A stretch of 25,254 bases of DNA from a virus. The position numbers and the translations under genes are program-made. Positions 1 through 20,940 of this stretch are shown one piece after another. The DNA is taken from the IMG/VR virus record IMGVR_UViG_3300026097_000093, positions 1 through 25,254 of that record. One strand, given 5' to 3'. The notes beneath the pieces were generated by a model. It did not search any database and was not told where the DNA came from. It saw only the letters and a program-made list of their open reading frames with translations. Within the stretch, counting starts at the first letter, position 1. Each line of letters opens with the position of its first letter.

Positions 1-792
1 TACTCCAACTGGAATTTGAAAGTTGGGCTTGGGTCTACCTGCCCATTTTCTTTTTAATTCTGTATATGCTCTCTGAGGCATTCCGTTATATAATCGTTTT
101 AACATGTCTTCGGTATACCCATCAACAACCCTGCTGGCCGTGGGGTCGCTCTGAGGTTTTAACGTTACATTTATGCCCTGCTCATGAAAGAAAAGAGCAT
201 TTTCCCAATCTCGTTCAAACCAGTCTGGGACCATTACTTGGTTAATGGTCACTTGAACATCATGTTCTTGGCAAAAGATTAATTTGTCCGCAAATTCCTG
301 CATTTTTTCCGGAGTGTTTACATGCTCTGTGTGTAAGCTTGCAGTTATACTTGCACGGTGGAAGGGTTTTGCGCTTTCCACATATTCTTCAAACCATTTC
401 ATATTTCGACTACAATTACTAGTCATATGAATACTGGTATAATTAGTATTCTGTACATCGTCTGCAAGGTATTTTAAAATATCTAAATATCCTGGATGAA
501 AAGTTGGTTCTCCACCGCTGAGACTAAAATGAAAACTGTTAAATCCGTTATCCCGTGCTTGGCGCTTTATTTCATCTATTGTTTTAAGACAAAGTTCTGT
601 CGGTCGATGATCTTTTTTGTCAGATCTGGCGTATGGCCAGCAATAGCTACATCTATAATTACAGAATCTTCCAAGGAGCCACGACACTGTGAAGATATCT
701 CTGTATAAAAGTGTGCGCTGGCCTACTTGCGTAATATCATGAAAGGGAATTTTCGTAAAATCGTAATTACTCCATTTGAGATCTTCATTCAT
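1..792 (-). CDS. Radical SAM protein, CNYxCSYC type (3' end cut by window edge)
   Basis: The frame is open from an ATG at 792 to the left edge of the window, giving 264 visible codons, so the C-terminus is missing. The radical SAM [4Fe-4S] motif CNYRCSYC lies at residues 44-51 (C44, C48, C51). The SAM-contacting motif SGGEPT follows at 92-97, the usual spacing in this superfamily. Upstream of the motif is the block FTVSWLLGRF, which closely parallels FQVTWDTGRR in the 403-aa radical SAM protein at 2567-3778, so the two are paralogs. The start overlaps the stop of the SDR-like gene by 8 bases (ATGAATGA), and GAGAAATGGT precedes the ATG as a modest ribosome binding site. Any C-terminal auxiliary-cluster domain lies outside the window. 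The family is clear; the substrate is unknown. Confidence 0.9.
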   Translation of the reverse strand, partial: MNEDLKWSNYDFTKIPFHDITQVGQRTLLYRDIFTVSWLLGRFCNYRCSYCWPYARSDKKDHRPTELCLKTIDEIKRQARDNGFNSFHFSLSGGEPTFHPGYLDILKYLADDVQNTNYTSIHMTSNCSRNMKWFEEYVESAKPFHRASITASLHTEHVNTPEKMQEFADKLIFCQEHDVQVTINQVMVPDWFERDWENALFFHEQGINVTLKPQSDPTASRVVDGYTEDMLKRLYNGMPQRAYTELKRKWAGRPKPNFQIPVGV

Positions 793-1339
793 ACCATTTC
801 TCGCATTGCATAGGATCTATACTTATCTCATTTATATTAACATGTTTAGGTTGTTCTATCAACCACTGAACGTACTGAGCAGCTGTGTCTATATCAAGAC
901 ACTTTCTATCAGTATGTTTTTCTTGCTTGTTTGAAAGTGTGCCAAAACTAATATAACTTACTTTTGGTTTGTCAGACCACACTCCGCCTATAGCTAAAGT
1001 GTTACTGTAATCCCTGAGTGCTTTTTTCTCTGCATTATATAGCCAAGGCTTTCCGTTTTTTACTCTGTCAGTTGTGCTTCCTATGCATACTATATGCGGA
1101 GTATGATTTGCGTCCACACACGACCTATATATTGCGTCTAAGAGGGTGGTTTGTTCAAACCGCCATAGTGCTACACAGTTTATAATTGTGTCATGGGATA
1201 GACAGAGTTTTGCAAATTGTTGCTGGTGTTCTGTTTTGCATAAATCCCATCCGGTCGACTTACTGAAAAATTCTGCAGTCGGAAAAATTTTAGATAGTGC
1301 TCGGGCTAGTCCTTGATTTGGATTTCCGGTTATTATCAT
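785..1339 (-). CDS. Short SDR-like NAD(P)-dependent oxidoreductase
   Basis: This 184-aa protein has short-chain dehydrogenase features. The N-terminal strand runs straight into TGNPNQGLA (residues 4-12), resembling the TGxxxGxG dinucleotide-binding loop. IINCVA (52-57) sits where SDRs carry NNAG, IGST supplies a serine at 88, and YNAEK gives Y101xxxK105, the catalytic pair. It is shorter than a typical SDR of about 250 residues, so part of the substrate-binding region is reduced. I chose the ATG at 1339 rather than one four codons upstream, because it makes an ATGA overlap with the preceding stop and begins the protein directly at the first Rossmann strand. It lies between radical SAM genes in the leftward operon and may reduce or oxidise the same pathway intermediate; that role is inferred. 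The substrate is unknown. Confidence 0.72.
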   Translation of the reverse strand: MIITGNPNQGLARALSKIFPTAEFFSKSTGWDLCKTEHQQQFAKLCLSHDTIINCVALWRFEQTTLLDAIYRSCVDANHTPHIVCIGSTTDRVKNGKPWLYNAEKKALRDYSNTLAIGGVWSDKPKVSYISFGTLSNKQEKHTDRKCLDIDTAAQYVQWLIEQPKHVNINEISIDPMQCEKWYE

Positions 1340-2562
1340 GATTCTAACCAATCTGTAAGCAATGGATCTATATAATCTCCAAAATATTGATTCCTCGATC
1401 TATCAAACAATGTAATTTCCTTTAGCAATAAACTCTTATCTTCGTTATTATTCTTTATTGCCCAATTAATTTGATTTATAAGTTCGCTCACTGCGTAATC
1501 TACATAAGGAACATCCATATAAGGTATAATTCTGCGTTTTGCTTCCTCTAATATATAGCAAGGCAGTCTTTTAATTGCAATGCCACGCTCGGTAGGATAT
1601 ACTTCTGTAAAAACAAGAGCAGGCTTTTGCACAAGGGATAAACACCATTTTATGTAATCGCCAGCATTAAGCACATTTAGAGAGGTCAAAACAAAATTAA
1701 AATCAACCCAATCTTCTACGTCAACAACTTCACTGATATATTTTGGTAACTGATTTTCTATTTCTTTAAATGTTCCTGGATATCTGATATAGTCATAAAC
1801 CTTGTTGACGCCGTCTATGCTGAGTGTATGTTTATTTCCTTTAAATTGTTGAAGCATGCTTATCAGATTATCGTCAAATTGTGTTCCGTTTGTGTGAAAG
1901 GCTAAGACTATATCCTTTGCAGTGTCATTGTCAATATAGCTTTGCAAAAGTTTGATCACTTCTTTATCATAAAATGGTTCTCCTCCTGACATTTTAAGCA
2001 TTTTAATTTTACTAGGATTTTCTAAAAGCCATTTCCACTGAGGAGACTGGTGTGTAGCATGCGGTACACTTGCGCTCCATCTGTCTTTAATTGCATCGCC
2101 TAATTCTGATAATAAATTGTTTTCTTCGAAGTATTTGTGGTCTTTCATTAACAGATTACTGTTACCAGGGGTGCACATTCTACACCTAAGGTTACAAATA
2201 TTTGAAATAGTCACATCAATTATTTCTAGATTTTTTTCATAATCTAGAGCGGTGTTTTCGTCAAAAGAATTATTTCTATATGATTTAAGTCCTTTATCTT
2301 CCATTTTCCAGCATACACTACATGCAGGATCTCTTATTCCTGCAATAAGATTATTGCGCAATTGGTCCATTCTAGGATGATTAAACATTTCTTCCGGAGT
2401 CAAATTGCTTATTTCTCCGGTACCTAAAACATCAGGATCATAAACTCCTTCTTGAGTGTTTGGCATGTTACAACAAGGCCAAAACGACCTTGCTTTATTA
2501 TTTTCAAAATTTTTCATTGCCAGTTGTTTAAAGGGATATTTACAATATGTATTTCTTGACAT
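1336..2562 (-). CDS. Radical SAM protein with N-terminal twitch/SPASM-like cysteine module
   Basis: The 408-aa protein carries an extra cysteine module before the radical SAM core: C7, the pair C30-C31 and C81xxC84, resembling the auxiliary-cluster part of SPASM/twitch domains. The core motif CNLRCRMC follows at 123-130, then SGGEPF at 192-197. The same order occurs in the proteins at 3768-5087, 5900-7312 and 8476-9750. Such enzymes generally reductively cleave S-adenosylmethionine to a 5'-deoxyadenosyl radical, with the extra cluster aiding substrate binding or electron flow; that is family knowledge. The frame extends upstream to a TTG at 2580, but the ATG at 2562 lies four bases after the preceding stop and about 10 bases downstream of GGAAAAG, so I use it. 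It overlaps the next gene by ATGA. The substrate is unknown. Confidence 0.9.
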   Translation of the reverse strand: MSRNTYCKYPFKQLAMKNFENNKARSFWPCCNMPNTQEGVYDPDVLGTGEISNLTPEEMFNHPRMDQLRNNLIAGIRDPACSVCWKMEDKGLKSYRNNSFDENTALDYEKNLEIIDVTISNICNLRCRMCTPGNSNLLMKDHKYFEENNLLSELGDAIKDRWSASVPHATHQSPQWKWLLENPSKIKMLKMSGGEPFYDKEVIKLLQSYIDNDTAKDIVLAFHTNGTQFDDNLISMLQQFKGNKHTLSIDGVNKVYDYIRYPGTFKEIENQLPKYISEVVDVEDWVDFNFVLTSLNVLNAGDYIKWCLSLVQKPALVFTEVYPTERGIAIKRLPCYILEEAKRRIIPYMDVPYVDYAVSELINQINWAIKNNNEDKSLLLKEITLFDRSRNQYFGDYIDPLLTDWLES

Positions 2563-2566
2563 AACT

Positions 2567-3778
2567 TTATGCTTTTCCAATAATATTTGTATCTATATGA
2601 CCTTTAATAACATCGTAGTAATTCTCTTCATACTGGCTTTTAGGTGCACATAATCCGCATCCGCATGTATGTTTAGGACATATCACAGTAGGTAAAGTTC
2701 CGCTTTCCATTTGTTGTTTTAATTGGGCTATAAGTTTTTTTCCTTCACTAATTTTTCCTATAGGCCCTCTAGTTTTATCAAACCTTGCTTGACAGGTTTG
2801 ATGATGGAATACACTATCTGTTTGTTGCTCTAGATGCAGGAAGAACCAATTTACACTGCAATGCCAACCTTTAAACTCTCTAAAGTCAACGAAAGTACTC
2901 TTTCTGCTTTCGCCCGCGTTACTTAGACACATTTCTCTGCTTCCGCAACACGGCCTTCCTATTTTATAACCTTTCTTTTCGGATTCTTTTTTCTTTATTA
3001 TTTCTAATTCTTTGGCTTTTATTTCTTCTGGAGTCGGTTCGCCTGTGGCCCTAAGACGGTCTGAAACTTCTTTCTCTCCATTTAATTCAGCATTTTTGTA
3101 TTGCCAATAATTTTTCATGTAATCAAGTTGATCGTCTGAATAGGTGTGAGCAAAATTACTTCGACTTCCTGGTTCTTCTCCTATTACACGAGGCACATAT
3201 TTAACACCATTATCATGTAGGAAATCACATAGGTCTTTACATTCGTCAAAGTAGGCTGCATGAAACATTACATTAACACTAACACCAAAATTGTGGTCAG
3301 GTCCTTCGGTATGGAATTGCATAATTCTGTCTCTAACCTGCTGTTTTAATTTGTTATCACTCTCAGCATGATAACTAACTGTTGCAAAGCCAAAGTTTTC
3401 CATGACCGCATTGGCCATTTTTTTACCCATTGCACCATTTGTCGTAAGCGCAAATCCGCAGTTCCATTTATCTCTGTATTTGTTTTCGTATTCTGTTTTA
3501 AGGTATTTGGCAAATGGAATAAAATTAGGATTAACGGTGGGCTCTCCTCCAGTAAACCCTATATTAGCAGACTTATATTTTCTATACTGCATATGCAAGT
3601 CAATATATTCAAATAGGAAGTCTGTGTTATTTTTTAATTCTTCTAATGTTGCATGCGGAGAAAAATTATCGTGCCGTATTGCGGGGCAGTATGAACAATC
3701 GTAATTACATCTACGACCTGTATCCCAAGTTACCTGAAATACTCCCCCTGTAAGTAAATCAATTGTATCAAAACTCAT
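2567..3778 (-). CDS. Radical SAM protein with cysteine-rich C-terminus
   Basis: The 403-aa protein has CNYDCSYC at residues 24-31 (C24, C28, C31) and TGGEPT at 76-81. After a core of about 200 residues comes a charged linker rich in E and K (roughly 225-270). A cysteine-rich tail follows, with C277, C278, C284, C307, C329, C367, C372, C374 and C377, well able to hold one or two auxiliary iron-sulfur clusters or a metal site. The tail does not follow the standard SPASM spacing that I know. The core resembles the partial protein at 1-792 (V.W..GR.CNY.CSYC). The ATG overlaps the previous stop by 11 bases and has AAGGAA 8 bases upstream. The radical SAM assignment is firm; the substrate and the cluster count are unknown. 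Confidence 0.9.
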   Translation of the reverse strand: MSFDTIDLLTGGVFQVTWDTGRRCNYDCSYCPAIRHDNFSPHATLEELKNNTDFLFEYIDLHMQYRKYKSANIGFTGGEPTVNPNFIPFAKYLKTEYENKYRDKWNCGFALTTNGAMGKKMANAVMENFGFATVSYHAESDNKLKQQVRDRIMQFHTEGPDHNFGVSVNVMFHAAYFDECKDLCDFLHDNGVKYVPRVIGEEPGSRSNFAHTYSDDQLDYMKNYWQYKNAELNGEKEVSDRLRATGEPTPEEIKAKELEIIKKKESEKKGYKIGRPCCGSREMCLSNAGESRKSTFVDFREFKGWHCSVNWFFLHLEQQTDSVFHHQTCQARFDKTRGPIGKISEGKKLIAQLKQQMESGTLPTVICPKHTCGCGLCAPKSQYEENYYDVIKGHIDTNIIGKA

Positions 3779-5087
3779 CTATATATTCCTTAAATGCAGG
3801 TTCTATTTCAAATAAACTTTCGTTACGCATGGTATCTAGCTTCTTCGTATAAGTTTTAAATTCGTTCCAATGTGTGTCGTAATAACTTTCAGAATTCATA
3901 TAATTACAAACACCAGTTGCTATATCTGTAGCATGTTTTACCACATGGCTTTCAAAATTATTATCATTAATCCATTTTATAAATTCTTCAAAACGTTTTG
4001 TTAATTTTTGTTTTGCATCTTCTGGCAAGACTCTAATATTCAGGTGCTTAGGATGATGAGCAACATGATGCGTAATAACAGGACGTTTTAATGTACTATT
4101 GATAGTCGTAAATCCACTTTCAGTCAGTTTCCATTTCATAAAATCTATCATATGATTTACATTGTATGCTGTAACAGTAAACGCTAACCACCCATAGATA
4201 TTTTTTGGCATAGCGTCTAGCGTTTGCAAGTTTTTATATATTTTTTCCCACTTTGCAGGATATCTTTGATACTCTAAAACTTTACCGTAACCGTCGACGC
4301 TTGCGCCAACACGAACTTGTTTAAAACTCTCCCACATCTTTGATACTCTAGGCGGTAGTGTACTCATATTAGTATTGTATTCAATAATTATATTCTTTGC
4401 ATGTCCTTGATCTATACAGCGTTGTAGGAAATCATAATGACGTTCAATCAACATTGGCTCGCCGCCGGCAAAATAGATATGTCCAATGTTTTCAATATGT
4501 TTTTCAAGATATTCCCAAAACGGTTCATGATTGGGCCAGTCATATTCGCTCGCACACAATTTTCCGTTTACTTCTTTTATTTCTACATTGCCGCTTGTTT
4601 CTTTAAAAAAATTAGAACCTGTAAGTTTAATCCAATCATCGTACCAGGCATTGCTATCGGTTGGTCCGCACATACGGCATTTTAGATTACAAAAATTTCC
4701 AAACCGTAAATCATAATATTGGACAGGAGATTGTTCTACATCAATTGTGCCATCTGCATCAGTCACTAATGCTGCATCTTGAACAGAAAAATTCCAATTT
4801 TCATTTTCGTATTGTCTTCTACTATTTAGACCTGCTTCTTCCTCTGCTTTGCATCTTCCGCATTCGTTATTCCAAACACCTTGGAGCATGTTAATACGCA
4901 TTTCTTTCATAATATCTGCGTTTCTTGCTTCGTCTAAGTCATCCGATCCCGCATTGTAAGCATTCCCGTTGGATTTCCGTATTACGCCCCTATTTTCTGT
5001 AACATTGGCTTGACAACAAACTCGCAGATCTCCGTTTGCCCTAGCAGCCTGAAATATCCAAGGTATAGGACAAAATGTGTCAGACAT
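3768..5087 (-). CDS. Radical SAM protein with N-terminal twitch/SPASM-like cysteine module
   Basis: The 439-aa protein has the N-terminal module C6, C24-C25 (RVCC), then C76xxC79 (NECGRC), followed by the core motif CNLKCRMC at 133-140 and AGGEPM at 207-212. It is the closest local relative of the protein at 5900-7312: both share the CxxPW start, the RVCC pair, the YFAGGE strand and a C-terminal block with HHP..LN..VLP. This pair probably arose by duplication, and the PP-loop ATPase gene now lies between them. The ATG at 5087 overlaps the previous stop by 8 bases (ATGTCTGA). A recognisable Shine-Dalgarno at the right distance is lacking, so coupling to the upstream gene probably drives translation. 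The substrate is unknown. Confidence 0.91.
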   Translation of the reverse strand: MSDTFCPIPWIFQAARANGDLRVCCQANVTENRGVIRKSNGNAYNAGSDDLDEARNADIMKEMRINMLQGVWNNECGRCKAEEEAGLNSRRQYENENWNFSVQDAALVTDADGTIDVEQSPVQYYDLRFGNFCNLKCRMCGPTDSNAWYDDWIKLTGSNFFKETSGNVEIKEVNGKLCASEYDWPNHEPFWEYLEKHIENIGHIYFAGGEPMLIERHYDFLQRCIDQGHAKNIIIEYNTNMSTLPPRVSKMWESFKQVRVGASVDGYGKVLEYQRYPAKWEKIYKNLQTLDAMPKNIYGWLAFTVTAYNVNHMIDFMKWKLTESGFTTINSTLKRPVITHHVAHHPKHLNIRVLPEDAKQKLTKRFEEFIKWINDNNFESHVVKHATDIATGVCNYMNSESYYDTHWNEFKTYTKKLDTMRNESLFEIEPAFKEYIDEF

Positions 5088-5907
5088 TGTTAAGAGCTTC
5101 CATCATTGTTTGTACTCTACTCTCTGCCCATTCTCGTTCGTAACACCACCAACATTCTCCACAAGTTGGAATCTTCATGCCTTCTACATAATCAGTCGCC
5201 GAGGGTACTGCTCTTTTAATTTCTGAATGAAGATTAATGTCTCCCTCGCAACTTCTTGTTGTATCGTACAATTCTATAATATCTAACACATGATATTGTG
5301 TTACTATCCAATCCTTTTGTACATATTTAAACGGATGCGCCAATACAACATTTAATGTATCGTTATGAGACCACACATCTTTTACATTTCCACTAGCAGC
5401 ATCACCGTCTCTATTATTCATTCTATCACTTCTAGTATCGTTATCAGGGTTCTTACTTGTAGCATTAAAAATTGCATCTAGATTATATTCCCATGCAGCA
5501 AATTTATTGAAACTTCCAACAATAATTTGATCTCCACTTCTACCGTCTATAATAGGTCCAGAAACTCCATATTCTAATTCAGGAGGAATATAATTTGTAA
5601 TTCTATCTGCAATAATATTTGGAAAATAACTTTTTAGCTTGTTATAAACCTGTATACTCCACCATCCTTGCCAAGGTCTAGTTGTCCAGCATCTTTGGTA
5701 TGTAATAACATTTACTCGAATGTTGAGTTTGTATTTTTTAATGATACTGCAAACTATATAGGTTAGTAATGCACTGTCTGCACCGCCACTGAGATTTACT
5801 GCAATTTTTTTCCAGTTTGGATCTAGATAGATATCTAAACCACTAATTGTTTCTTTGATTAAGTTTTCATGTAAGTCTTTGTAAAGTAGATTATTATCTT
5901 CAAACAT
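5080..5907 (-). CDS. QueC-like PP-loop ATPase with four-cysteine zinc site
   Basis: The 275-aa protein has the PP-loop motif SGGADS at residues 40-45, which binds the ATP pyrophosphate in adenylating enzymes of the N-type ATP pyrophosphatase group. Near the C-terminus lie C220 and then C249xxC252xxC255, followed by YEREWA. QueC (7-cyano-7-deazaguanine synthase) has a comparable C-terminal zinc site followed by a R..A helix, though with far fewer residues between its first and second cysteines than the 28 here. The family adenylates a carboxylate or thiolates/amidates a nucleobase-like substrate; the substrate here is unknown. I use the ATG at 5907, not the in-frame GTG at 5919, because GAGG sits 6-7 bases upstream and the start makes the recurrent 8-base overlap (ATGTTTGA). 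Its place between two radical SAM paralogs suggests a shared pathway. I see no QueD, QueE or GTP cyclohydrolase here. Confidence 0.78.
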   Translation of the reverse strand: MFEDNNLLYKDLHENLIKETISGLDIYLDPNWKKIAVNLSGGADSALLTYIVCSIIKKYKLNIRVNVITYQRCWTTRPWQGWWSIQVYNKLKSYFPNIIADRITNYIPPELEYGVSGPIIDGRSGDQIIVGSFNKFAAWEYNLDAIFNATSKNPDNDTRSDRMNNRDGDAASGNVKDVWSHNDTLNVVLAHPFKYVQKDWIVTQYHVLDIIELYDTTRSCEGDINLHSEIKRAVPSATDYVEGMKIPTCGECWWCYEREWAESRVQTMMEALNNV

Positions 5908-7312
5908 TAGGGTCCTCACTAAAAATATTTTTCATCTCTGGAAATGTTTCTGCAAATGTTATTCCGCGCTGTTTATCGCATAAATCTAAAAATTCTTTCA
6001 TTTCAGGTAAACGTATACTCCAGTCTTCACTTTCCATAAACTGTAGCATTCCTTTCAAGCGTTTAATCCCATATCCTGCTTCCATAAACTGTTCCTTTGT
6101 AACTTTGCCTCGATGCCAATTAGGGACACCTAATTCCCAATTTTCTTCCCACCATGGATAAAATTCTTCATATTTTCTGCGTACTTCTTCTTTAAACCAT
6201 TTGGGTAATACTTTAACATTTAAGTGCGGAGGATGATATACAAAATGATAGTTAACACCGCCCGCTCCAAATGGCCACATGTTAATTTTATTAAATCCTT
6301 CTTCTAGTTTCCAACGAATGAAATCAGGAATATAATAAATGTTTAATGCTTGTACTGCACAAGCAACAGTAACTTCGACATTATTTGATGTTTCTTTATC
6401 TAAAATATGGAACACTTCTCGTGTTCTGTCCCATTTGCTTGGATAACGAATATAGTCATTCATTTTGTGTATACTATCAACACTATAATGGAATCGAACT
6501 AATTTAAACTCTTTCCACAAATCAAATAAATCTTCTCGCCATTCGACACCATTCGAATTATAACGCAATTCAAGATCTTTCGCATATCCCATTTTTATTG
6601 CATGCTCTAATATTTCGTAATGCTCTTCGATAATAAGACTTTCGCCGCCTGCAAAATAAATTTGCTGCATATTTGGCATTTGCTCATAGAACTGCTCCCA
6701 GAATACAGGATTCTGTTTATGCCAATTATAACTACTTCCGTTATAACTTCCTTTGTCCTGCCACTGCATAGTTTCTTTTAGTGATGCATTTTCTACTGCT
6801 GGAAAAATTGCTTTATAGTCTTTAATCCAGCCCGAACTGTCATGGGGAGAACACATTACACACGCTAATTGACACTTAGTACCAAATCGCAAATCAATAT
6901 ATGCCAACTGAGGAGGAACACTACCGTCCTCGGCAGTATTTTGAATTAACTTATCTACATCAACTCGTTGGCTCCAGTAGTGTGTTTCCCACATTCTTTT
7001 ACTGTTATGACCGGCTGCTTCTTCTTTAAAACATTTCACACAACTCGGAGGTATTTCGCCATTAAGCATTTGTTTGCGCACATTGCGCATGTATGTGCTA
7101 TTCCATGCTGTTTCAAAGTCGCTTACATTTAGATTGTTAGGTTTTCCGTCTTCAGTTTTTAGTATACCAACTTGTCCGCCGTGTTCTTTATCGTTAGTAG
7201 GACCTACCGAACTTGCATTTGCTGTACAACATACCCTCATACTTCCATCAGGCCGAGTGCTTAAATGTACCCAGGGCAGAATGCACCAGGTATCGGATAT
7301 TTTATTTTTCAT
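5900..7312 (-). CDS. Radical SAM protein with N-terminal twitch/SPASM-like cysteine module
   Basis: The 470-aa protein begins with C10 and C28-C29 (RVCC), then an acidic, glycine-rich insertion (about 40-60), then C91xxC94. The core motif CQLACVMC is at 147-154, and AGGESL at 221-226, with serine replacing the usual proline after GGE. The C-terminal half is rich in tryptophan and aromatic residues and shares YHPPHLN..VLP with the protein at 3768-5087. The start ATG at 7312 is 29 bases after the preceding stop, with AAGGTAAG upstream, so it has its own ribosome binding site. It overlaps the PP-loop gene by 8 bases. The radical SAM assignment is certain at family level; the substrate is unknown. 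Confidence 0.91.
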   Translation of the reverse strand: MKNKISDTWCILPWVHLSTRPDGSMRVCCTANASSVGPTNDKEHGGQVGILKTEDGKPNNLNVSDFETAWNSTYMRNVRKQMLNGEIPPSCVKCFKEEAAGHNSKRMWETHYWSQRVDVDKLIQNTAEDGSVPPQLAYIDLRFGTKCQLACVMCSPHDSSGWIKDYKAIFPAVENASLKETMQWQDKGSYNGSSYNWHKQNPVFWEQFYEQMPNMQQIYFAGGESLIIEEHYEILEHAIKMGYAKDLELRYNSNGVEWREDLFDLWKEFKLVRFHYSVDSIHKMNDYIRYPSKWDRTREVFHILDKETSNNVEVTVACAVQALNIYYIPDFIRWKLEEGFNKINMWPFGAGGVNYHFVYHPPHLNVKVLPKWFKEEVRRKYEEFYPWWEENWELGVPNWHRGKVTKEQFMEAGYGIKRLKGMLQFMESEDWSIRLPEMKEFLDLCDKQRGITFAETFPEMKNIFSEDPNV

Positions 7313-7341
7313 AAATTTACTTACCTTTATACATCAGTATG

Positions 7342-7800
7342 TTATTTGTTCGTGGTATCTTTGTAATTTATTTCATTGTGGTATGCTTTATTCTTAGCAC
7401 ACGTTCTAATACAACGACTAATATGCTTGGGGTGTCGAGGGTCCCAACTTTCTCCTAGTATGGTTTTAAACCAAGGATGAGACAAAATATCATCAATGTT
7501 ATTTTCCTGTAAACTATTCCAGTTTTCTCTAAAGTCAGAAAATGTTTCTTTTATATTGTCTTTGTTTCTAAAATAACTATCCCAGAGAAAGCAGCACGGC
7601 CAAACTGTTTTATCGCTAGCAATAAAAATTTCTCCTTCGTGCACATATTTGCATACAATACTATTAAGAACTTCTTTGAGTTTTTCCTCATCAAGGTTAT
7701 GATCTTCATATTCTTTAATAAAATTATCTAGTTCTTGTACTATATCTTTTTTACTGTGTTCTTTAGAACCTGTTGTTGTTATTATTATTTTGTTAGACAT
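7342..7800 (-). CDS. Detached SPASM-like C-terminal half of a split radical SAM protein
   Basis: The 152-aa product has no radical SAM core. Its cysteines C50, C69-C70 (WPCC) and C130xxxC134 match the C-terminal auxiliary-cluster region of the intact 360-aa radical SAM protein at 9702-10784 (C256, MPCC at 273-276, C344xxxC348). Alignable flanks include GEIFIASDKTVWPCC against GSIFITAEGLLMPCC. The gene starts at ATG 7800 inside an A8 tract and overlaps the core-domain gene by 8 bases (ATGTCTAA). Deleting a single A would fuse the two into a protein of about 358 residues, nearly the length of the intact paralog. It may be a separate subunit, a transcriptional-slippage product, a real frameshift mutation or a sequencing error. 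See the matching finding. Confidence 0.8.
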   Translation of the reverse strand: MSNKIIITTTGSKEHSKKDIVQELDNFIKEYEDHNLDEEKLKEVLNSIVCKYVHEGEIFIASDKTVWPCCFLWDSYFRNKDNIKETFSDFRENWNSLQENNIDDILSHPWFKTILGESWDPRHPKHISRCIRTCAKNKAYHNEINYKDTTNK

Positions 7801-8419
7801 TTTTTTTCTTCTTAATTTGAGCAATCCATTCGTTGTAACTATTACGCATACCGGTTCTAGTTGCAAACATAAAATTTAATTCTTTTGCACGTTGTTCAGC
7901 TAATAGTAATTCGTGTTCATTATGATCGAATACTATATAAATCCAACTAGCGTGATTAGGAGGAGCTGAATCACAAAATGCTTGCATATTTCTATCAATA
8001 ACATCATATATTGTGTTAACACGATATATATGATTAGTTTCTTTGTAACCGTCGACGCAAAAATGTATATGGAGTAAGTTAGGACTACTTGAGGCTATTT
8101 TGCCTAATTTAGACCACCAGTCGGCCGACTGTATTCCTCCGTTTGTGCTAATTTCACAAAACCCGTCATACGAAACTAGGTAATCTACCATATCTACACA
8201 TTCTTTATTAAAAGCAGGATCTCCTAAAACTCCGCAGAATTTAAATTTTTTACCTTCGATTGTGCTACGTGAAGGGAACATTTGTTTTATATCGGCAAAA
8301 GTTATCGTATTGATTGAAAATTTATCAGGATTAAGCGTTCTTGCACAACCCGGACAAGCAGCATTACAATTACTAGTAATTTCTAATTCAATTTTATTAA
8401 GAGACTCTAATTCAAACAT
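7793..8419 (-). CDS. Radical SAM core protein, LGDP type (N-terminal half of a split gene)
   Basis: The 208-aa protein is a bare radical SAM core. CNAACPGC is at 18-25, the same residue numbers as CQASCPMC in the intact paralog at 9702-10784, which supports the ATG at 8419 over a GTG at 8434. Instead of GGE it has GVLGDP (63-68), as the paralog has GNLGDP. Further shared blocks are ADWW/EDWW, VDGYKETNHIYR/VDGLKDTNHIYR and DHNEHE/QHNEHQ. It ends in KKKKNV at an A8 tract, just where the paralog's linker continues towards its auxiliary-cluster domain; that part is encoded separately at 7342-7800. The ATG lies about 7 bases beyond the -10 element of a sigma70-like promoter, so its mRNA would be leaderless or nearly so. 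It is the first gene of the second leftward operon. Confidence 0.87.
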   Translation of the reverse strand: MFELESLNKIELEITSNCNAACPGCARTLNPDKFSINTITFADIKQMFPSRSTIEGKKFKFCGVLGDPAFNKECVDMVDYLVSYDGFCEISTNGGIQSADWWSKLGKIASSSPNLLHIHFCVDGYKETNHIYRVNTIYDVIDRNMQAFCDSAPPNHASWIYIVFDHNEHELLLAEQRAKELNFMFATRTGMRNSYNEWIAQIKKKKNV

Positions 8420-8425
8420 TACACT

Positions 8426-8454
8426 ATAATACACTTTATAAATATTTAGGTCAA
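8426..8454 (-). promoter_or_regulatory. Sigma70-type promoter for the 1-8419 operon
   Basis: On the minus strand TTGACC (8454-8449) and TATTAT (8431-8426) are separated by exactly 17 bases. That is a close match to the sigma70 consensus, with 5/6 at each hexamer. It points leftward into the split radical SAM gene, and the predicted transcription start falls on or next to the ATG at 8419, implying a leaderless transcript. The spacer contains the opposite-facing late promoter element. Confidence 0.68.
8437..8444 (+). promoter_or_regulatory. T4-type late promoter element TATAAATA
   Basis: A perfect TATAAATA octamer, the -10 element recognised in T4-like phages by the gp55 late sigma factor, faces the single rightward gene. 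It lies 32 bases before that gene's ATG, leaving room for a transcription start near 8450 and the AAGGAAAT ribosome binding site at 8461-8468. It sits inside the spacer of the leftward sigma70-type promoter. Confidence 0.6.
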
Positions 8455-8475
8455 GTATTTAAGGAAATTATTTTT

Positions 8476-9750
8476 ATGGTATCTAACAAAATGGGCGACA
8501 AGTTTTGTGCTGCGCCATTTACTTCTCTATACGAAGGACAGTTTGGTAAAGTAACTGCATGTTGTGCAATGTATACAGAATTAGGATCTACACATCAAGC
8601 AGATCTAGAATCTATTGTTAACAATGAGAAATTTAAGAATATCAGAAAATCTTTCCTCAACAATACTTTCCCTAAAGAATGCGATACATGTTCTAATTTT
8701 GAAAAAGAAACAGGCTCAATTGCAGATGTAAGAGATGCCTCTAATAAATTTGGAAGATCGAAAATTAAAGAGGCAATAATTGCAACCGATTCAACCGGGT
8801 ATATGCAGCAACAATTTCCAGTGATGTTAGATTTTTTATGGACCAATAAATGTAACTTTGCATGCCTTGGTTGTAATGGAGAACTATCTAGCACTATTGC
8901 ACAAAATTATAACGAGGCTTTTGCCTTAGCACACGGATGCAATAGCGATAGTCTAAATTCAAAATTATGGAGAAATAATAATGATAATAAAATAGACTAT
9001 ATTCTAAAGCATCAAGACAGTATAGAAAAAATACATCTAAACGGCGGCGAACCTTTTATGCAAGAAGATGTCCATGAGCTTTTAGAAATAATGATAAAAC
9101 ACAATCTTCATAAAAAAATTACAATCTGGTCTCACACTAATGGCAGTATAAGCAAATACAAAAGCATAAACATTATTGACGACTACCTCGCAAGATGGGG
9201 TAAAAAGTGCATTATAACTATCAGCCACGACGGACATGGCAAACAAGGTGAATATGTTCGTTACGGACTAAAACAGCAGAAATGGTTAGAAACTTTGAAT
9301 AATTTGCAAAATGCAAATGTTAATGTAAATATTCAAACTTGTTATAGTGTATTTAATGCACTACACTTGGCAGAACTATATCAATGGTATGACGACAATA
9401 CTAAAGTCGACCGAAGAGATAGAAAAATAAATCCTTGGTACGATCCTTTACCATACACTGCAAAGTTTTTACAGGTAGACGAAGAATTATTTGCACAAGC
9501 CAATCAACAACTAGATATTTTGAATAATATTATACAAGGAAACAATTCTTGGAATATAGCACATCTTAAATCATTTCTAAACACAAGAGAAGCTGATAAT
9601 AAATTACATGTTGCAAAAACTAGATTTGCTAGCAGTCTACAAAAATTTGATGCGCTGAGAAACACAGATTTTACATCTACGTTTCCTGAACTTAGAGAAT
9701 TTTATTTGAACTGTTCAGAAAATGGATCAAAATCGGAACCGCACTTCTGA
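8476..9750 (+). CDS. Radical SAM protein with N-terminal twitch/SPASM-like cysteine module (only rightward gene)
   Basis: The 424-aa protein has C11, C29-C30 and C69xxC72 ahead of the core motif CNFACLGC (126-133) and NGGEPF at 189-194. It therefore shares the N-terminal-module architecture of the proteins at 1336-2562, 3768-5087 and 5900-7312. It diverges more from the 3768-5087/5900-7312 pair: it lacks the HHP..LN block, having a WYDPLPYTAKFLQVD block instead. The ATG at 8476 has AAGGAAAT 7 bases upstream and a perfect late promoter octamer 32 bases upstream, so it is probably transcribed late and apart from the leftward genes. Its last 49 bases are also coding on the opposite strand for the end of the 9702-10784 gene. 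It sits between two paralogous LGDP-type radical SAM loci. Confidence 0.91.
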   Translation: MVSNKMGDKFCAAPFTSLYEGQFGKVTACCAMYTELGSTHQADLESIVNNEKFKNIRKSFLNNTFPKECDTCSNFEKETGSIADVRDASNKFGRSKIKEAIIATDSTGYMQQQFPVMLDFLWTNKCNFACLGCNGELSSTIAQNYNEAFALAHGCNSDSLNSKLWRNNNDNKIDYILKHQDSIEKIHLNGGEPFMQEDVHELLEIMIKHNLHKKITIWSHTNGSISKYKSINIIDDYLARWGKKCIITISHDGHGKQGEYVRYGLKQQKWLETLNNLQNANVNVNIQTCYSVFNALHLAELYQWYDDNTKVDRRDRKINPWYDPLPYTAKFLQVDEELFAQANQQLDILNNIIQGNNSWNIAHLKSFLNTREADNKLHVAKTRFASSLQKFDALRNTDFTSTFPELREFYLNCSENGSKSEPHF

Positions 9751-10784
9751 GCGCAAACTCCTAATTTTCCATTTTCCACTCCAGTGAGCGACCAGCTATC
9801 ACTAATACTTTTTATTAGGTTACCATTAATTACATCTTGTATATCGTTATTTATTACGTTTATGCCCTCTTTGCCGCCGGCCATTTCTATGTGATCCCAA
9901 ATTTGCTCTACCCTAGGATCTTGGTGCCACCATTTGTACATACGACCTGCTGTCCAACAGCATGGCATCAGTAAACCTTCTGCCGTTATGAATATACTAC
10001 CTTGTTCTGCAACCTTGCAATTAATTGAACATTTGTTAAGATACTCTTTCATACTACCATATGTTTTTTCAATTTCTTTTTGCTTTTGTAACGCAAGATT
10101 AACATTAACTTCTTTACTTGGCTTTGCTATTTTGGCCGTATGTTCACCTTTTCTGTTAATTGCTTGATGCAGTTCTTTTGGTTTAATATCTGATGTAACA
10201 AATCTGCCTGATTTCTTTTTTATAAATCTTTCTACTCCCCAGGATCTTGCAAGTTGTTCTGCTTCTTCGACCTGATGTTCATTGTGTTGAAAAATTAAAA
10301 AATCCCACCTAGCTCGGCCGCCTGCCCTTATAAATGACTGCATTGACCTTTCTACGATTTCCCAATTCACTCCTTGCCTATATATATGATTAGTGTCTTT
10401 CAGTCCGTCTACACTAAAAATGACAGCACCCATTCTTCCCAATGTATCAGCTAGTTCAGTCCACCAGTCTTCGTCCCTTGCTCCTGCATTTGTATTCATA
10501 CTGAGCCACATGCTTGGATTATGCTGCCTGAAATATTTAAAAATATCCAGCGTATCTCTAGCAACAATAGGATCGCCTAAATTGCCGCACATGTACATCG
10601 TTTTTAATTGTTTGATAAATTCTGGTTTGAATATACGTTTGCAATCTGCAAGTGTTAGTTCTGCGTTTGTTATATGTGGATTATCTGCACCGCCGTTCAT
10701 ATTACGGTCACACATAGGACAAGATGCTTGACACCGCTGTGTTACTTCTAAATGAACTTCTTTTATATCATCATATGTATACAT
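9702..10784 (-). CDS. Radical SAM/SPASM-like protein, LGDP type (intact)
   Basis: The 360-aa protein has the core motif CQASCPMC at 18-25 and GNLGDP at 67-72 in place of the usual GGE. A basic linker (about 185-245) follows, then a C-terminal auxiliary-cluster domain with C252, C256, C275-C276, C344 and C348. This is the full-length form of the gene that is split at 7342-8419. The start ATG shares one base with the preceding stop (TAATG) and has AAAAGG upstream. It is the last gene of the 9702-18758 operon, and its 3' end overlaps the convergent rightward gene by 49 bases, with no terminator visible. The radical SAM family is certain; the substrate is unknown. Confidence 0.9.
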   Translation of the reverse strand: MYTYDDIKEVHLEVTQRCQASCPMCDRNMNGGADNPHITNAELTLADCKRIFKPEFIKQLKTMYMCGNLGDPIVARDTLDIFKYFRQHNPSMWLSMNTNAGARDEDWWTELADTLGRMGAVIFSVDGLKDTNHIYRQGVNWEIVERSMQSFIRAGGRARWDFLIFQHNEHQVEEAEQLARSWGVERFIKKKSGRFVTSDIKPKELHQAINRKGEHTAKIAKPSKEVNVNLALQKQKEIEKTYGSMKEYLNKCSINCKVAEQGSIFITAEGLLMPCCWTAGRMYKWWHQDPRVEQIWDHIEMAGGKEGINVINNDIQDVINGNLIKSISDSWSLTGVENGKLGVCAQKCGSDFDPFSEQFK

Positions 10785-11734
10785 TATCTGCCTTTTCTGT
10801 TTAGTAACACAGTCTCTGCTGTAAAAATTTTTTTTCTAGTTAATGTTTCTAATAATCTACAGTTATTATAAACAATGTCTTTAGAAGCAATTTCATTTAC
10901 AATCTGTATGTAACTTGATTTATCTACCTTCAAATGCACAGTGGGATCTATATGAAAATATAGCTCCCACAAATCTAAATCAATATACTTGATATCATCA
11001 ATTATAATTTTGATAGGGCTATTAGATTTCCTACAATAATTTGTCTTAAAAATACCGTCAATTTTTGTTCCTACCCTAAATTTATTAACAACATCTAGTC
11101 CGTTTTGTAGCAAAAACTTTGGTATGTTAAAATTTGTATTCGTATTCGTATTTGATAGCACATTGTCTGCTTTTTTCCTCCAATCATCATAACCATTATT
11201 GTCACGCATTGAAGTTTCGCCATGCCAAGAAACTTCCAAGGCACCAGTGTCTTTTCTAACTTTCATACTACACTGATTATTATATAAATTTGTAATTTCA
11301 AATAAATGATGCAATTGCCGACTGTTATATTCTTGAATTTTTTTGGTTGATTGTAAAAGTACAGGCATTGTGGGAATATCTAAATAACCTGCAATTGCAT
11401 ACCTTTTACCCCCAGGATGGAAAGTTTTAAGATTCTCCGAACATAATGGACTTTGTATTCCTTTTTGATCTATGCTTGAAACTAAAAACCACAATTGTTC
11501 TGCATAACTTTTTATCGCCGGCACTGTATGATAAAATTTCATCATTTTATAATCCAAATTTAAATAACGGTGAGGCTCAGCATATTCGGGCACTCTGTTT
11601 GGATCCCATAACGCTTGTTTTAAGATATTTCTAGTGGGGTATTTTGGTAAGTAATAAAAGAAATAATTTTTGAAGCATTCGTATGCTTCGTTGGGTAAAC
11701 GAGGTAAGTCGGATATGTCTCGGTCAAGTTTCAT
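10784..11734 (-). CDS. Uncharacterised 316-aa protein
   Basis: I do not recognise this 316-aa protein. It is predicted soluble, with no signal peptide or membrane segment, and is rich in Y, K and N. The stretch ENLKTFHPGGKRYAIAGYL (about 100-118) recalls the IHPGxxR segment of ParB-like proteins, but the surrounding residues do not support that assignment. A low-complexity NTNTNTN run near residue 195 is encoded by a repeated hexamer. It overlaps the upstream radical SAM/SPASM gene by ATGA and shares a base with the downstream radical SAM start, so it is translated between two radical SAM genes. A partner or substrate-binding role would fit but is only a guess from position. Confidence 0.8.
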   Translation of the reverse strand: MKLDRDISDLPRLPNEAYECFKNYFFYYLPKYPTRNILKQALWDPNRVPEYAEPHRYLNLDYKMMKFYHTVPAIKSYAEQLWFLVSSIDQKGIQSPLCSENLKTFHPGGKRYAIAGYLDIPTMPVLLQSTKKIQEYNSRQLHHLFEITNLYNNQCSMKVRKDTGALEVSWHGETSMRDNNGYDDWRKKADNVLSNTNTNTNFNIPKFLLQNGLDVVNKFRVGTKIDGIFKTNYCRKSNSPIKIIIDDIKYIDLDLWELYFHIDPTVHLKVDKSSYIQIVNEIASKDIVYNNCRLLETLTRKKIFTAETVLLNRKGR

Positions 11735-12687
11735 TTTAAATGCCTTAATAAATTTAGGCTAGTCCCTTGTATATCACCTACATCGGTAGCCTCATCATTT
11801 GTCCAAACTAACACGTCAGGATCATCATATAAAAAGTCACATTTTTTACAATAATCTATATTATCAAAGTCTTCCTTGAGATGTTTTTCTCTTAGTTCGT
11901 TGTATAAAGCTCCATTCCATATATCATGTAAACTTTCTTTGTCAGAATATCCTAATACACTCTTTGTCTCATTGGGCGGTCCTAGTGTTTGTGCGCAGGG
12001 TGTTACCGCACCATATCTGCCCGGTTCTCCTCCTGCTCTAATTGTAATTTCATTAGCAAAAGGTCGGCCACAAGTTCTGCGCTTATTAACAATTTTTCTA
12101 TTTTTACTATCAATGTTACCGCTCCAATTGTGCATTTTCCAAACATATGATTTACAGTTTAGTTTTTTTGCTATTGTTTTATATTTTTGGAGTTCCTCGT
12201 CATCAGAAGACAATAAAATGTGATATATGCTAATTTCGCAATTGTAATGCTTTTTTCTTATTTGATCAATACAATATGTTATATTATCCATGATCAAGTC
12301 AAAGTTATCAACAGACATATTTTTCTTATATGAAAGTCTGTCATGCCCTATTACGCTAAATCTGATGTACGTCAACCCCGCTTTTAGACATTTATCCATA
12401 AGAGTTGTGTTGAAAGAGCCATTTGTTTTAACGAATGTTTTCATATTTCTTTTAGAACATTCAGCAATATATAAATCTAAGTCTTTTGCAAGAAACGCTT
12501 CTCCCGAACCTTCTAATTGTATAAGAGGATTGCCGTCTAATTGATCGAGCAATTTTACAAAATGTGGTAATGGCATTTTCCGAGTCCACGACGAGCCCCT
12601 TCCTTTCGACTGGGGACACATTACGCATTTATAGTTACAGCCACCAAAAATTTCTATAGATGCTCTTTCTACTTTTAATTTCTTCAT
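11731..12687 (-). CDS. Radical SAM/SPASM protein (C-terminal SPASM)
   Basis: The 318-aa protein is the most conventional SPASM enzyme here. CNYKCVMC is at 17-24, and GSGEAF at 60-65 stands where most relatives have GGEP. The C-terminal SPASM segment has C206 (RTCGRP), C231 (TPCAQT), the block SVLGYSDKESLHDIWN (243-258) and C280xxC283. The -LG-----L-DIWN- block is typical of SPASM domains, which hold one or two auxiliary clusters and often act on peptides or proteins or on sugar-like substrates. Only part of the usual cysteine set is present, so there may be a single auxiliary cluster (twitch). The start is 8 bases after the SGNH gene, with TTTAGG upstream. No precursor peptide is evident nearby. 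Confidence 0.9.
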   Translation of the reverse strand: MKKLKVERASIEIFGGCNYKCVMCPQSKGRGSSWTRKMPLPHFVKLLDQLDGNPLIQLEGSGEAFLAKDLDLYIAECSKRNMKTFVKTNGSFNTTLMDKCLKAGLTYIRFSVIGHDRLSYKKNMSVDNFDLIMDNITYCIDQIRKKHYNCEISIYHILLSSDDEELQKYKTIAKKLNCKSYVWKMHNWSGNIDSKNRKIVNKRRTCGRPFANEITIRAGGEPGRYGAVTPCAQTLGPPNETKSVLGYSDKESLHDIWNGALYNELREKHLKEDFDNIDYCKKCDFLYDDPDVLVWTNDEATDVGDIQGTSLNLLRHLK

Positions 12688-12695: not shown

Positions 12696-13421
12696 CTAAA
12701 TAAACTTGTTAACTTTTGGATACATAATTTTAGATAATTCTTTATGACCATCTTGACCTAAATGAAACCCTGTATCTACAACTTTTTTAGGAAAATCAAC
12801 TATTTCTCTCTCTGCAACGAAATCCAGGTGCTGTGTTTGACAATTACGATATCTATCCAAGAAATCAAACATTATCAAGCCTATCTCATTTTCTTTACAT
12901 TCGTGTGCAATAGAAGATTTAAGCAGATAAGAATATCTATCAGAGAATTCGCCTAAAGGTCCTACTCCGTGCAGTAACATAGTTTGGTATGTATCTATAA
13001 ATTTATTTTTATACAATTCTAAATCTGCAGGATTGAAATGAATACAGTAATTATCAAAATTTCCTTTTGCTTTTTGCTCTTTGGTAACTAAATAATTTCT
13101 ATCATACTCGTAATATCCTTTCGAGTATTCTCGCATGTATTTTTTGCTGGATAAAAAATGCTTATACTTGTTTGCGTCCTCTATAAAGGTAACACGACCA
13201 TCTGTGGTCCACTGGATTATAATTAAATCTGGTTTAGATTTAACAATTTCCAATGCTTGTAGACACTGGTTAGACACACTGTTACAAAACATTGAAAAAT
13301 TTTTTACTATTATTTGCGGGGACACACGTTCTGCAAGGAGTTGGGGCCATACCTTTGTATCATATTTGTGTCTATGAAGACTAAAGCTACAACCTATAAC
13401 AGCAATTGTCTTTTTATTCAT
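12696..13421 (-). CDS. SGNH/GDSL hydrolase-like protein
   Basis: The 241-aa protein starts with a hydrophobic strand leading to GCSFS (10-14), matching the block I GxSxS of SGNH esterases with S12 as likely nucleophile. Near the end, VDTGFHLGQDGHKEL (about 215-229) resembles block V with a histidine at 220 followed by the common GxxGH-like tail, but the usual DxxH spacing is stretched to DxxxH (D216, H220). The middle QWTTDGR segment follows IIIQW, like the strand that carries block III in some phage SGNH proteins. Such proteins deacylate or esterify glycans and lipids. It overlaps its upstream neighbour by ATGA and has AGGTG before the ATG. The glycosyltransferases in the same operon make a glycan substrate plausible. 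Confidence 0.7.
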   Translation of the reverse strand: MNKKTIAVIGCSFSLHRHKYDTKVWPQLLAERVSPQIIVKNFSMFCNSVSNQCLQALEIVKSKPDLIIIQWTTDGRVTFIEDANKYKHFLSSKKYMREYSKGYYEYDRNYLVTKEQKAKGNFDNYCIHFNPADLELYKNKFIDTYQTMLLHGVGPLGEFSDRYSYLLKSSIAHECKENEIGLIMFDFLDRYRNCQTQHLDFVAEREIVDFPKKVVDTGFHLGQDGHKELSKIMYPKVNKFI

Positions 13422-13645
13422 TTTTCACCTGCTATTAATTGAATATCTTTACCAGGTCCAATATTGCTTGGTAAATCTCCATATTGGGCTACATACCATT
13501 TTATTACTGCTTTGTACCAATTGTGACTATTATGATGGGCTTCTTTGTTAAATTGATAAATGTTATTATTTGTCGCCTGCATCGTGCTTAATGCCCTGGC
13601 ACTTTCTTTTTGCAGTTCCCGCAGTGTAAGATTATCTAATTTCAT
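13418..13645 (-). CDS. Small uncharacterised protein (75 aa)
   Basis: This 75-aa protein is rich in N, H, Q and W and has no cysteine, signal peptide or membrane segment. The first 30 residues look helical (LRELQKESARALSTMQ). It is real rather than a chance ORF: the start and stop both form ATGA overlaps with the methyltransferase upstream and the SGNH gene downstream, and AGGAAG precedes the ATG. I do not recognise a family. It lacks the cysteine-rich or glycine-rich core expected of a radical-SAM-modified peptide, so I do not call it a precursor. Confidence 0.72.
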   Translation of the reverse strand: MKLDNLTLRELQKESARALSTMQATNNNIYQFNKEAHHNSHNWYKAVIKWYVAQYGDLPSNIGPGKDIQLIAGEK

Positions 13646-14496
13646 GGTCTTCCTATTAACATAAATCTTTTATATCCATAAAGTTCTAATTCGCCTTCGT
13701 ACAAAATTTGATCAAAGGGATATTTTTTCTTCATGTGATCGATGCTGTGTACACAATTTACGTGTTCTTCAATGTCAAATAAATTGTTAGACTGTATTAT
13801 TACCAGTGGATCAGAATTTAACTCTTTAAATTTAAGCTGAAAAAACCATTCTTCTGACATATGTTCTGAACTAGTGTTAACTATAAGATTAGGTAAAAAT
13901 TGTTGTGTATAACCTTCGTCGTTATCGGAATGGTATGTTTTTACATTTAAATTATAACCGTTCTTATTCAATTCAAGATTATTTATATTAGCTAAAACAG
14001 ATTTGACTTTATGACCTTCAATATGGTCTAAGTTAAATATTCTATCACTTGCTATACATGCAGATTTATCTAATTCGATTATTCTTGCATCATCGAAGTC
14101 AAAGTTATCGATATAAGAAATAAATTGGCCAAACCATCCTGCTAAAACTAAAATATTTCCTAAATTGCCTTCCTTTATTTTTTTTAGTTCTTGTATTATC
14201 CAAATTTTACTTAGGACTTGTCCCCTGCTGAAAGCATCTTGTAAAGCAACCGGATCGTTGTCTAGCCTATAATATTTGTGAAAAATATCAAAAATTTTGT
14301 TAGGAGCAAACTTTCGCAAAATGCTAATAAACTCAATCATTCCACTAGGGTTTGTAGTATCAATAACAGGATTATCTGAATACATTGCTTTTTCTAAAAA
14401 CTGCATAAATTTGTAAGCTTCTTGATCACCTTCATATTCAAAATATGAAGAAAGGCCTCTGACCCAATTAAGCGTTGTTTCTGTAGTATTCGTCAT
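13642..14496 (-). CDS. Class I SAM-dependent methyltransferase-like protein
   Basis: The 284-aa protein has a Rossmann-like methyltransferase core starting near residue 113. NILVLAGWFGQF (114-125) is a motif I variant, ARIIELDK (137-144) supplies the acidic residues after strand 2, and LIVNTSSEHM (204-213) matches the strand 4 region. The N-terminal 110 residues are helical and specific to this group. The substrate cannot be read. It follows the tandem glycosyltransferase-like gene with a 29-base overlap and has GAGAAG before the ATG, so it may methylate a sugar or another product of that operon. The motif I variant with W and F in the glycine loop lowers certainty slightly. Confidence 0.72.
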   Translation of the reverse strand: MTNTTETTLNWVRGLSSYFEYEGDQEAYKFMQFLEKAMYSDNPVIDTTNPSGMIEFISILRKFAPNKIFDIFHKYYRLDNDPVALQDAFSRGQVLSKIWIIQELKKIKEGNLGNILVLAGWFGQFISYIDNFDFDDARIIELDKSACIASDRIFNLDHIEGHKVKSVLANINNLELNKNGYNLNVKTYHSDNDEGYTQQFLPNLIVNTSSEHMSEEWFFQLKFKELNSDPLVIIQSNNLFDIEEHVNCVHSIDHMKKKYPFDQILYEGELELYGYKRFMLIGRP

Positions 14497-18778: not shown

Positions 18779-18807
18779 AGTATAACAGGATTATCTACAG
18801 TTGTCAA
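18779..18807 (-). promoter_or_regulatory. Near-consensus sigma70-type promoter for the 9702-18758 operon
   Basis: On the minus strand TTGACA (18807-18802) is followed after exactly 17 bases by TATACT (18784-18779). The leader to the ATG at 18758 would be about 13-14 bases and contains AGGAGG. The -35 hexamer overlaps the stop codon of the tail gene ending at 18804, so a separately controlled transcript begins at the boundary of the tail module. Confidence 0.78.
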
Positions 18808-20930: not shown

Positions 20931-20940
20931 AACCTATTCC

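Follow-up and report, generated by a model that had tools for sequence, protein, structure and literature searches.

In pelagimyophages, the host-recognition cluster holds radical S-adenosylmethionine (rSAM) cassettes together with lipopolysaccharide-type glycosyltransferases (PMC7029224), and the T4-like marine genome TARA_ERS488813_N000010 (183 kb) contains 12 rSAM genes (PMC5332604). Both resemble the locus described here, which lies in the IMG/VR virus record IMGVR_UViG_3300026097_000093. The record is complete at 25,254 bases and was analysed as a whole (the window); 12.7 kb of it carries nine rSAM loci, A to I. The pelagimyophage cluster is likewise hypervariable, lies beside tail fibres in T4-like marine phages and combines glycosyltransferases with rSAM cassettes, but neither a conserved rSAM core nor bacterial relatives nor an array of 6–13 rSAM genes is described in the accessible part of that report. 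The TARA genome is also large, T4-like and marine with many rSAM genes; these are linked to an Fe-S A-type carrier gene, and the accessible part of its description gives no pathway, gene order or origin for them. Its count of 12 renders outdated the premise of the initial annotation of the window that one or two rSAM genes per phage genome would already be unusual. Fe-S assembly genes were rejected as partners of the present array, with no match to PF01521 or PF01592 in 18 contigs of the related phages. BtrN and other sugar-acting rSAM enzymes, like the rSAM peptide maturases, combine an rSAM core with a SPASM or twitch Fe-S part; among the matches listed for the window enzymes, no curated model of either kind reaches its cut-off. 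The window is read here, with confidence somewhat short of even, as the fibre-proximal part of an early-expressed phage island that would make and tailor a glycan.

All nine rSAM loci reported by the initial annotation are present as open reading frames (ORFs) where it placed them, and each contains the CxxxCxxC motif and matches PF04055 (9/9; E-values of 7e-14 to 1e-4 in a protein scan). Seven exceed the Pfam cut-off of 29.5 bits, and F (22.9 bits) and G (26.8 bits) lie under it; a six-frame PF04055 search of the record also returned nine matches, seven above the cut-off. This result is far beyond chance. Four details of the annotation required correction: F comprises the rSAM half of a gene, A is cut off, G lies on the opposite strand, and nine is a lower bound, because the 82.5-kb contig L009, which overlaps the window, carries 16 PF04055 matches. 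ORF lengths and gaps are approximate, as stop-to-stop frames were used, and all genes lie on the minus strand unless noted.

The N-terminal-twitch rSAM model NF033640 (cut-off of 170 bits) is passed by four of the nine enzymes, B (positions 1336–2580; 238 bits), D (3768–5087; 374 bits), E (5900–7312; 417 bits) and G (8476–9750, plus strand; 238 bits), which thereby belong to a family whose name carries no function. The remaining five, A, C, F, H and I, do not reach this cut-off. H (9702–10784; PF04055 E-value of 7.6e-8), I (11731–12687; 1.4e-11) and F (7793–8434; 1.1e-4) share an architecture of an rSAM core and a C-terminal SPASM-like part, for which the Pfam cut-off is passed in I alone. Scores against PF13186 (cut-off of 21.5 bits) lie above the cut-off for I (35.6 bits, 1.1e-8) and G (30.1 bits) and below it for E (21.3 bits), the separated half of F termed sp (19.0 bits, 0.0017) and H (14.2 bits). 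A (1–792; PF04055 7.3e-14) and C (2567–3778; 4.5e-10; Cys-rich C-terminus) are rSAM cores with other C-termini, and neither reaches the viperin family NF038283 (44.5 and 35.0 bits, respectively; cut-off of 180 bits). A is truncated by the contig end, the median frame of its family being 375 residues from stop to stop. No match was obtained for the window in a near-identity search of phage records or for E and the PP-loop protein P (below) in sequence searches of the PDB.

The SPASM half of F lies in a separate frame (sp, 7342–7818; 7342–7866 at the longer end) past an A8 run. The F family occurs in 45 of 80 related loci (below), including a split copy in L009, and has a median frame of 356 residues. 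The break between F and its SPASM half recurs in L009, but this contig matches the window without a difference over 17,312 bases and therefore provides no independent check. The separation could reflect a split gene, slippage or an assembly error. At 7793–7866, the stop codon of the first frame and the ATG of the second overlap (ATGTCTAA).

Relatives of E are encoded in 262 viral stretches, and the best 80 of the 262 (84–100% identity) were analysed. These 80 loci contain 653 rSAM ORFs (our own hidden Markov model, E-value ≤1e-3), 644 of them with CxxxCxxC, which fall into 91 single-linkage families including 31 singletons. Eighteen large contigs of the set carry 8–19 PF04055 matches each. Across 29 dereplicated loci with full flanks, each locus has 6–13 rSAM genes, and 282 of the 617 ORFs of at least 100 residues are rSAM genes. 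To our knowledge, such an rSAM gene density is found nowhere else, and we know of no other cluster with this many rSAM genes.

Gene order and strand are conserved around E (counts for gene order, and those for promoter-like sites below, include near-copies). The glycosyltransferase-like gene GT (69/69), the methyltransferase-like gene M (61/61), the small gene Z (63/63), H (74/74) and F (45/45) always lie upstream of E on the same strand. P, D, C, S, B, A and two more rSAM families lie downstream on the same strand with at most three exceptions per family, and G is always upstream but on either strand (10 loci on the strand of E and 13 on the other, 23 of the 80 loci in all). The initial annotation had called the window phage DNA and had proposed a search for co-occurrence. 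The related contigs are T4-like, with the gp23 major capsid protein (PF07068) on 6 of 18 E-bearing contigs, and most genes recur as a block of conserved order over the 80 loci. Unlinked genes and disrupted active sites, which it had raised as the opposite outcome, were not seen: the motifs are intact in 9/9 loci and the ratio of nonsynonymous to synonymous substitution rates (dN/dS) is low in the seven rSAM families tested. Its proposal of one multi-step pathway for all nine enzymes was not supported, as their occurrence is uneven. Among 48 dereplicated loci with a distinct E, H is found in 44, the GT/M family in 43, Z in 36, C in 27, D and F in 25 each, A in 23, S in 21, P in 20, G in 11 and B in 4; I occurs in L009 alone, identical to the window copy, and in no other of the 80 loci. 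A is present in 22 of the 34 dereplicated loci that have 9.5 kb of downstream sequence. Given this spread of occurrence, A, E, H, GT and M constitute a small core, accompanied by other rSAM genes that behave like exchangeable cassettes. The set provides the 91 rSAM families in natural combinations, and A-E-H is a simple core of three enzymes for reconstitution. Counted over all 80 loci, H occurs in 74, C in 42, D in 38 and B, a rare cassette, in 8. B12-binding-domain rSAM proteins were noted in L286, L287 and L290, contigs of the same phage set.

The genes tested are under purifying selection. Ten gene families have a median dN/dS of 0.01–0.18, and seven of the ten encode rSAM enzymes (A, C, D, E, F, G and H); 90th percentiles reach 0.72 for H and 0.47 for D, perhaps from mixed paralogues. 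In six gp23-bearing contigs, pairwise identity is 81–98% for E and 82–95% for A (10 of 15 pairs), compared with 82–97% for the capsid protein and 63–96% for H. On this comparison of six contigs, E and A match the major capsid protein in conservation and therefore matter to those phages. The closest relatives of one gp23 belong to large T4-like phages, Sinorhizobium phage Phosso (69.8%) and Vibrio phage 2.275.O (69.7%), and its list of nearest relatives also includes the GAP32 and PBECO4 types (about 65%). No gp23 was found on G001, a partial contig overlapping the window (PF07068; the window itself was outside that search). Among 50,697 phage records, E has a best match of 22%, in two Vibrio phages, and A, Z, domain 1 of GT and the proteins g8a and t2 have no match.

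The core is shared with bacteria. A genome scan with the N-terminal-twitch alignment yielded at least 78 loci, at least 38 of which, the top matches included, carry Bdellovibrio-, Bacteriovorax- or Oligoflexia-type titles, and several Bdellovibrionota-type loci hold A, E and H together with M or GT. An E orthologue (E-value ≤1e-100) is encoded in 15 of the 290 Bdellovibrionota genomes surveyed, and 14 of these 15 genomes supplied 15 bacterial E regions. A is present in 14 of the regions (one copy cut by a contig end; 13 in clustering) and an H-like gene in 12, of which 10 show at least 41% identity; two or more of A, E and H are adjacent in 13 of the 15. The GT family is found in 9 regions, M in 6, GT2-type enzymes in 6 and any glycosyltransferase (GT family or GT2 set) in 13. 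As controls, 39 bacterial loci of at least 15 kb with other N-terminal-twitch rSAM genes and no E were used, which come from mixed phyla and were drawn differently; they contain no GT family member, no A orthologue and no H orthologue, and any glycosyltransferase in 4. A of the phages is 53–67% identical to that of Bdellovibrionota and 82–95% identical between phages (10 pairs), and D reaches at most 51% in Bdellovibrionota. The open-access literature searched yielded no account of the A-E-H core, of its relatives in bacteria or of the array. Two bacterial proteins (L103 8404–9909 and L197 6670–8274) have a GT2 domain in the C-terminal half; the N-terminal half of the L103 protein holds CxxxCxxC and is possibly a degenerate rSAM domain fused to a glycosyltransferase. 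HTTM-like membrane proteins (by eye) adjoin bacterial rSAM clusters in L096, L104 and L095, and the one tested had no Pfam match.

In a maximum-likelihood tree of E rooted on D paralogues, 33 phage rows and four phage-like contigs from metagenome-assembled genomes (MAGs) form one clade (100/98) that is nested within bacterial E diversity, with genome G190 as its sister; the tree carries a long-branch warning for L106, L111, L105 and the outgroup. L106 and L111 were treated as phage because gp23 shares a contig with E in these MAGs, and L098 and L105, in which no gp23 was found, also group with phage E. The four contigs, L098, L105, L106 and L111, had been binned in Neisseriaceae, Acidimicrobiaceae, Gammaproteobacteria and Chloroflexi MAGs. 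Mis-binned phage DNA was rejected as the source of the Bdellovibrionota loci, gp23 not being found in the 15 E-positive genomes. Because the phage clade nests inside bacterial diversity, the most likely course is a transfer of the core from Bdellovibrionota to phages, although the long branches call for caution and G190 may be a bridge in either direction. In G190, a block E-GT-A-t2-V-g8b-g8a-GT-rSAM adjoins pheS and pheT (gene names by eye). In L292 (7148–19241), from a Bdellovibrionota genome that gave no match to gp23, housekeeping genes (by eye) adjoin E, A and a t2-V-g8b-g8a-GT block, which looks as though a fibre-modification module had been exchanged between chromosome and phage. The set also connects viruses with this lineage, which is known for predatory bacteria, though its E carriers are not necessarily predators. 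Phage-fibre-like adhesins of Bdellovibrio have been described (PMC10769870), and the words 'radical' and 'glycosyltransferase' are absent from the main text of that report.

Several neighbours of the rSAM genes suggest sugar chemistry. GT (14468–16111) encodes a two-domain protein, and the structure model of its domain 1 (pTM of 0.75) leans towards a GT-A-like fold. Foldseek gave 15 matches at E-values of at most 0.001, comprising 14 glycosyltransferase chains and one HddC, with TM-scores of 0.26–0.38 by query length; with VIA, the best match had a Z value of 10.3 and a root-mean-square deviation of 3.1 over 137 residues. A DxD motif is conserved, D66, D68 and N69 of DGDN being invariant in 19 rows. 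Among curated families, GT reached Glycos_transf_2 at 0.022, and three bacterial homologues gave no glycosyltransferase match. GT is followed by M (13642–14496; PF01564 0.0078, below cut-off) and preceded by the GT8-like proteins g8a (16744–17583; PHROG 1903 of unknown function, 3.9e-7) and g8b (17576–18415; no Pfam match), both named by eye and 36% and 34% identical, respectively, to chromosomal homologues in L292. In the phage-like contig L106, a GFO/IDH/MocA oxidoreductase domain is fused to an rSAM domain, and the next match downstream is GT. A homologue of the PP-loop protein P is fused to an rSAM domain in L061, L067, L077 and L078 (two of the four are near-copies), which bears out the link between the PP-loop gene and rSAM chemistry drawn in the initial annotation. 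Related loci also encode nitroreductase, Asp/Asn hydroxylase, TauD and AMP-binding proteins. Taken together, the GT evidence, the GFO/IDH/MocA fusion, the P fusion and the accessory enzymes fit best with glycan assembly and radical tailoring. Of the nucleotide, glycan or small molecule originally considered as product, the neighbours thus favour a glycan, by inference.

Promoter-like sites suggest how the island could be expressed. V (18408–18758) is the first gene of the modification operon and is preceded by a sigma-70-like site, TTGACA-17-TATACT (18779–18807), that matches at 11 of 12 positions. The site scores at least 10/12 in 10 of 10 V orthologues, or in 11 of the 12 of a second set, the remaining one scoring 9. 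Counted from the first ATG of each frame, sites of at least 10/12 precede GT in 33 of 67 loci and A in 22 of 34 (in the window, A overlaps S, and the A sites were counted across relatives). Other genes have few or none: C (0/37), D (0/42), S (0/33), G (0/17) and B (0/8) give 0/137 together, F has 1/41, E 3/79, H 3/72 and P 5/37, and unlabelled ORFs have 54/786. Such sites are not enriched over the whole window (91 vs 85.6 expected), and it is their placing before V, GT and A that is unusual. This placing argues for activation of the enzymes by host-type promoters, separately from the structural genes. The gene junctions from V (18758) to H measure −29 to +8 bases and those from F to A −26 to +29 bases, and the V-to-H genes are predicted to form a coupled operon. 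G faces the other way, 41 bases from F. The T4 late motif TATAAATA (2 vs 4.5 expected) and CTAAATA (9 vs 8.3) are not enriched in the window, and terminator-like sites number 6 (9.4 expected). One T4-late-promoter-like TATAAATA lies at 8437–8444, about 30 bases before G, in the sole divergent gap.

Under the glycan reading, host sigma-70-type promoters before V, GT and A would turn the operon on early. A, E and H would then carry out radical steps, for example epimerisation, dehydrogenation or deoxygenation, by which an unusual sugar would be built or activated, and GT and the GT8-like proteins would attach it. The variable rSAM cassettes would subsequently decorate the sugar differently in each phage. 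The product might be a modified glycan on the surface of the infected cell or on the fibres. The stable core of A, E, H, GT and M would most likely have been acquired from Bdellovibrionota, and it is surrounded by a fast-changing set of other enzymes, among them further rSAM and QueC-like ones. Should the product be a glycan, the island gives a chemical explanation, open to test, of how marine phages remodel host surfaces. A bolder version, which we regard as unlikely, is that T4-like marine phages took an A-E-H/GT/M glycan pathway from the predatory-bacteria lineage and turned it into a diversification engine, in which an invariant enzyme core supplies a radical-tailored sugar and cassettes drawn from dozens of rSAM families rewrite the structure of this sugar in each phage, acting early and disguising the cell or arming the fibres. 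If true, this would be a phage-run equivalent of O-antigen variation by radical chemistry.

Several observations weigh against the glycan reading. The substrate is still inferred, and a sugar pathway does not account for the near-invariant Z. The fold alone is no proof of a glycosyltransferase: the VIA rows include the nucleotidyltransferases MobA and IspD (Z values of 9.2–9.3), the best Foldseek matches include the peptide-glycosylating SunS/ThuS, and the TM-scores are low. Pfam cut-offs are not reached by M, g8a or g8b. Peptides are the substrates of most SPASM-type enzymes whose function is known. Two of the 15 bacterial E regions (L199 and L203) lack a glycosyltransferase of the kinds searched, the control loci were drawn otherwise and span other phyla than the E regions, and the chromosomal V in L292 has no promoter-like site (score of 8). 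The island is also not shown to be universal in its phage clade. Of 80 gp23 loci fetched, 12 other gp23-bearing contigs, all partial, were tested; none has an E orthologue and three have any N-terminal-twitch match, and on this count the idea that E belongs to the core genes of every phage carrying this gp23 was rejected.

A serious rival, although a somewhat unlikely one, is that the array, like rSAM peptide maturases, matures the small protein Z or the products of the tail-fibre genes just upstream. Z (13418–13645) lies at the array head and is encoded in 70 of the 80 loci (63 once overlapping frames are removed). Its 75 residues are near-invariant in these phages, with the consensus ARALSTMQATNNNI..FNK.AHHNS..WY.AVI.WY...YGDLPS..GPGKD, and a single-sequence model shows one long helix (residues 8–55) with a disordered but conserved tail. 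Five of the nine enzymes exceed the cut-off of a twitch or SPASM model (NF033640 for B, D, E and G; PF13186 for I), fibre genes adjoin the operon, a t2-like protein is retained alongside V, g8b, g8a, GT, E and A in the chromosomal block of L292, and Asp/Asn hydroxylases and nitroreductases occur in related loci. However, Z was not found in the E-bearing Bdellovibrionota loci, tblastn matches below 1e-20 being confined to the phage-like L098 and L106, and it was rejected as a general precursor because it was not found with the bacterial core. Twenty-one of 23 listed bacterial A/E/H junctions measure at most 59 bases (lower bounds, given the stop-to-stop frames), the matches listed for the nine proteins include no peptide-maturase model at cut-off, and the promoter-like sites set the operon apart from the structural genes.

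It is also conceivable, if doubtful, that the locus is a hotspot gathering unrelated rSAM genes for unconnected tasks of host takeover, with no common pathway. The breadth of the set (91 families, 31 singletons), the occurrence of G on either strand and the rare or private genes I, X and Y would suit such a hotspot. It sits poorly with gene order and strand conserved over 80 loci, an A-E-H core kept in bacteria, rSAM–PP-loop fusions and purifying selection on the rSAM genes.

P (5080–5919) resembles QueC in its PP-loop SGGADS and its C-terminal four-Cys pattern C..CxxCxxC (by eye) but has no match to PF06508, the QueC family, at E-values up to 0.1; a P-related protein from L077 passes PF06508 at 23.3 bits. 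QueC was rejected as a constant partner, PF06508 being matched at E-values of at most 0.001 in 7 of 18 contigs and above the cut-off in one. In the weakest alternative, a quite improbable one, the rSAM enzymes and QueC-like P would supply the phage genome or tRNA with a modified base or nucleotide: P is QueC-like (PHROG 1550, 4.2e-4), its homologue is fused to rSAM domains, and preQ0 genes are common in viruses according to the accessible part of one report (PMC9301287), but P is absent from the conserved core and its family is present in 37 of the 80 loci, the match of P to PF01171 stands at 0.021, PF06508 is as sparse in the contigs as given above, the matches listed include no QueE model at cut-off, and the core neighbours are GT-like with no known DNA-modifying enzymes.

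The remaining genes of the window complete the picture of the array and its flank. S (785–1351; 34 of 80 loci) had been labelled a short-chain dehydrogenase/reductase (SDR); its GxxxGxG-type and YxxxK motifs, read by eye, suggest a Rossmann/SDR-like protein, and no Pfam family matches at E-values up to 0.1. X (10784–11734), a protein of unknown family within the array, has no Pfam match and, of the 80 loci, is present in L009, L050, L086 and L087 only. Y (12696–13421), which also lacks a Pfam match, is SGNH-hydrolase-like by eye and, among the 80 loci, is found in L009 alone. U (16104–16751), of unknown family, overlaps its neighbours by 8 bases. Upstream of the operon, the tail-fibre/collar genes t1–t5 extend over 18804–25243; t5 matches PF07484 (6.7e-15), t3 matches a tail-fibre PHROG (1.7e-13), and t1, t2 and t4 were named from position and by eye.

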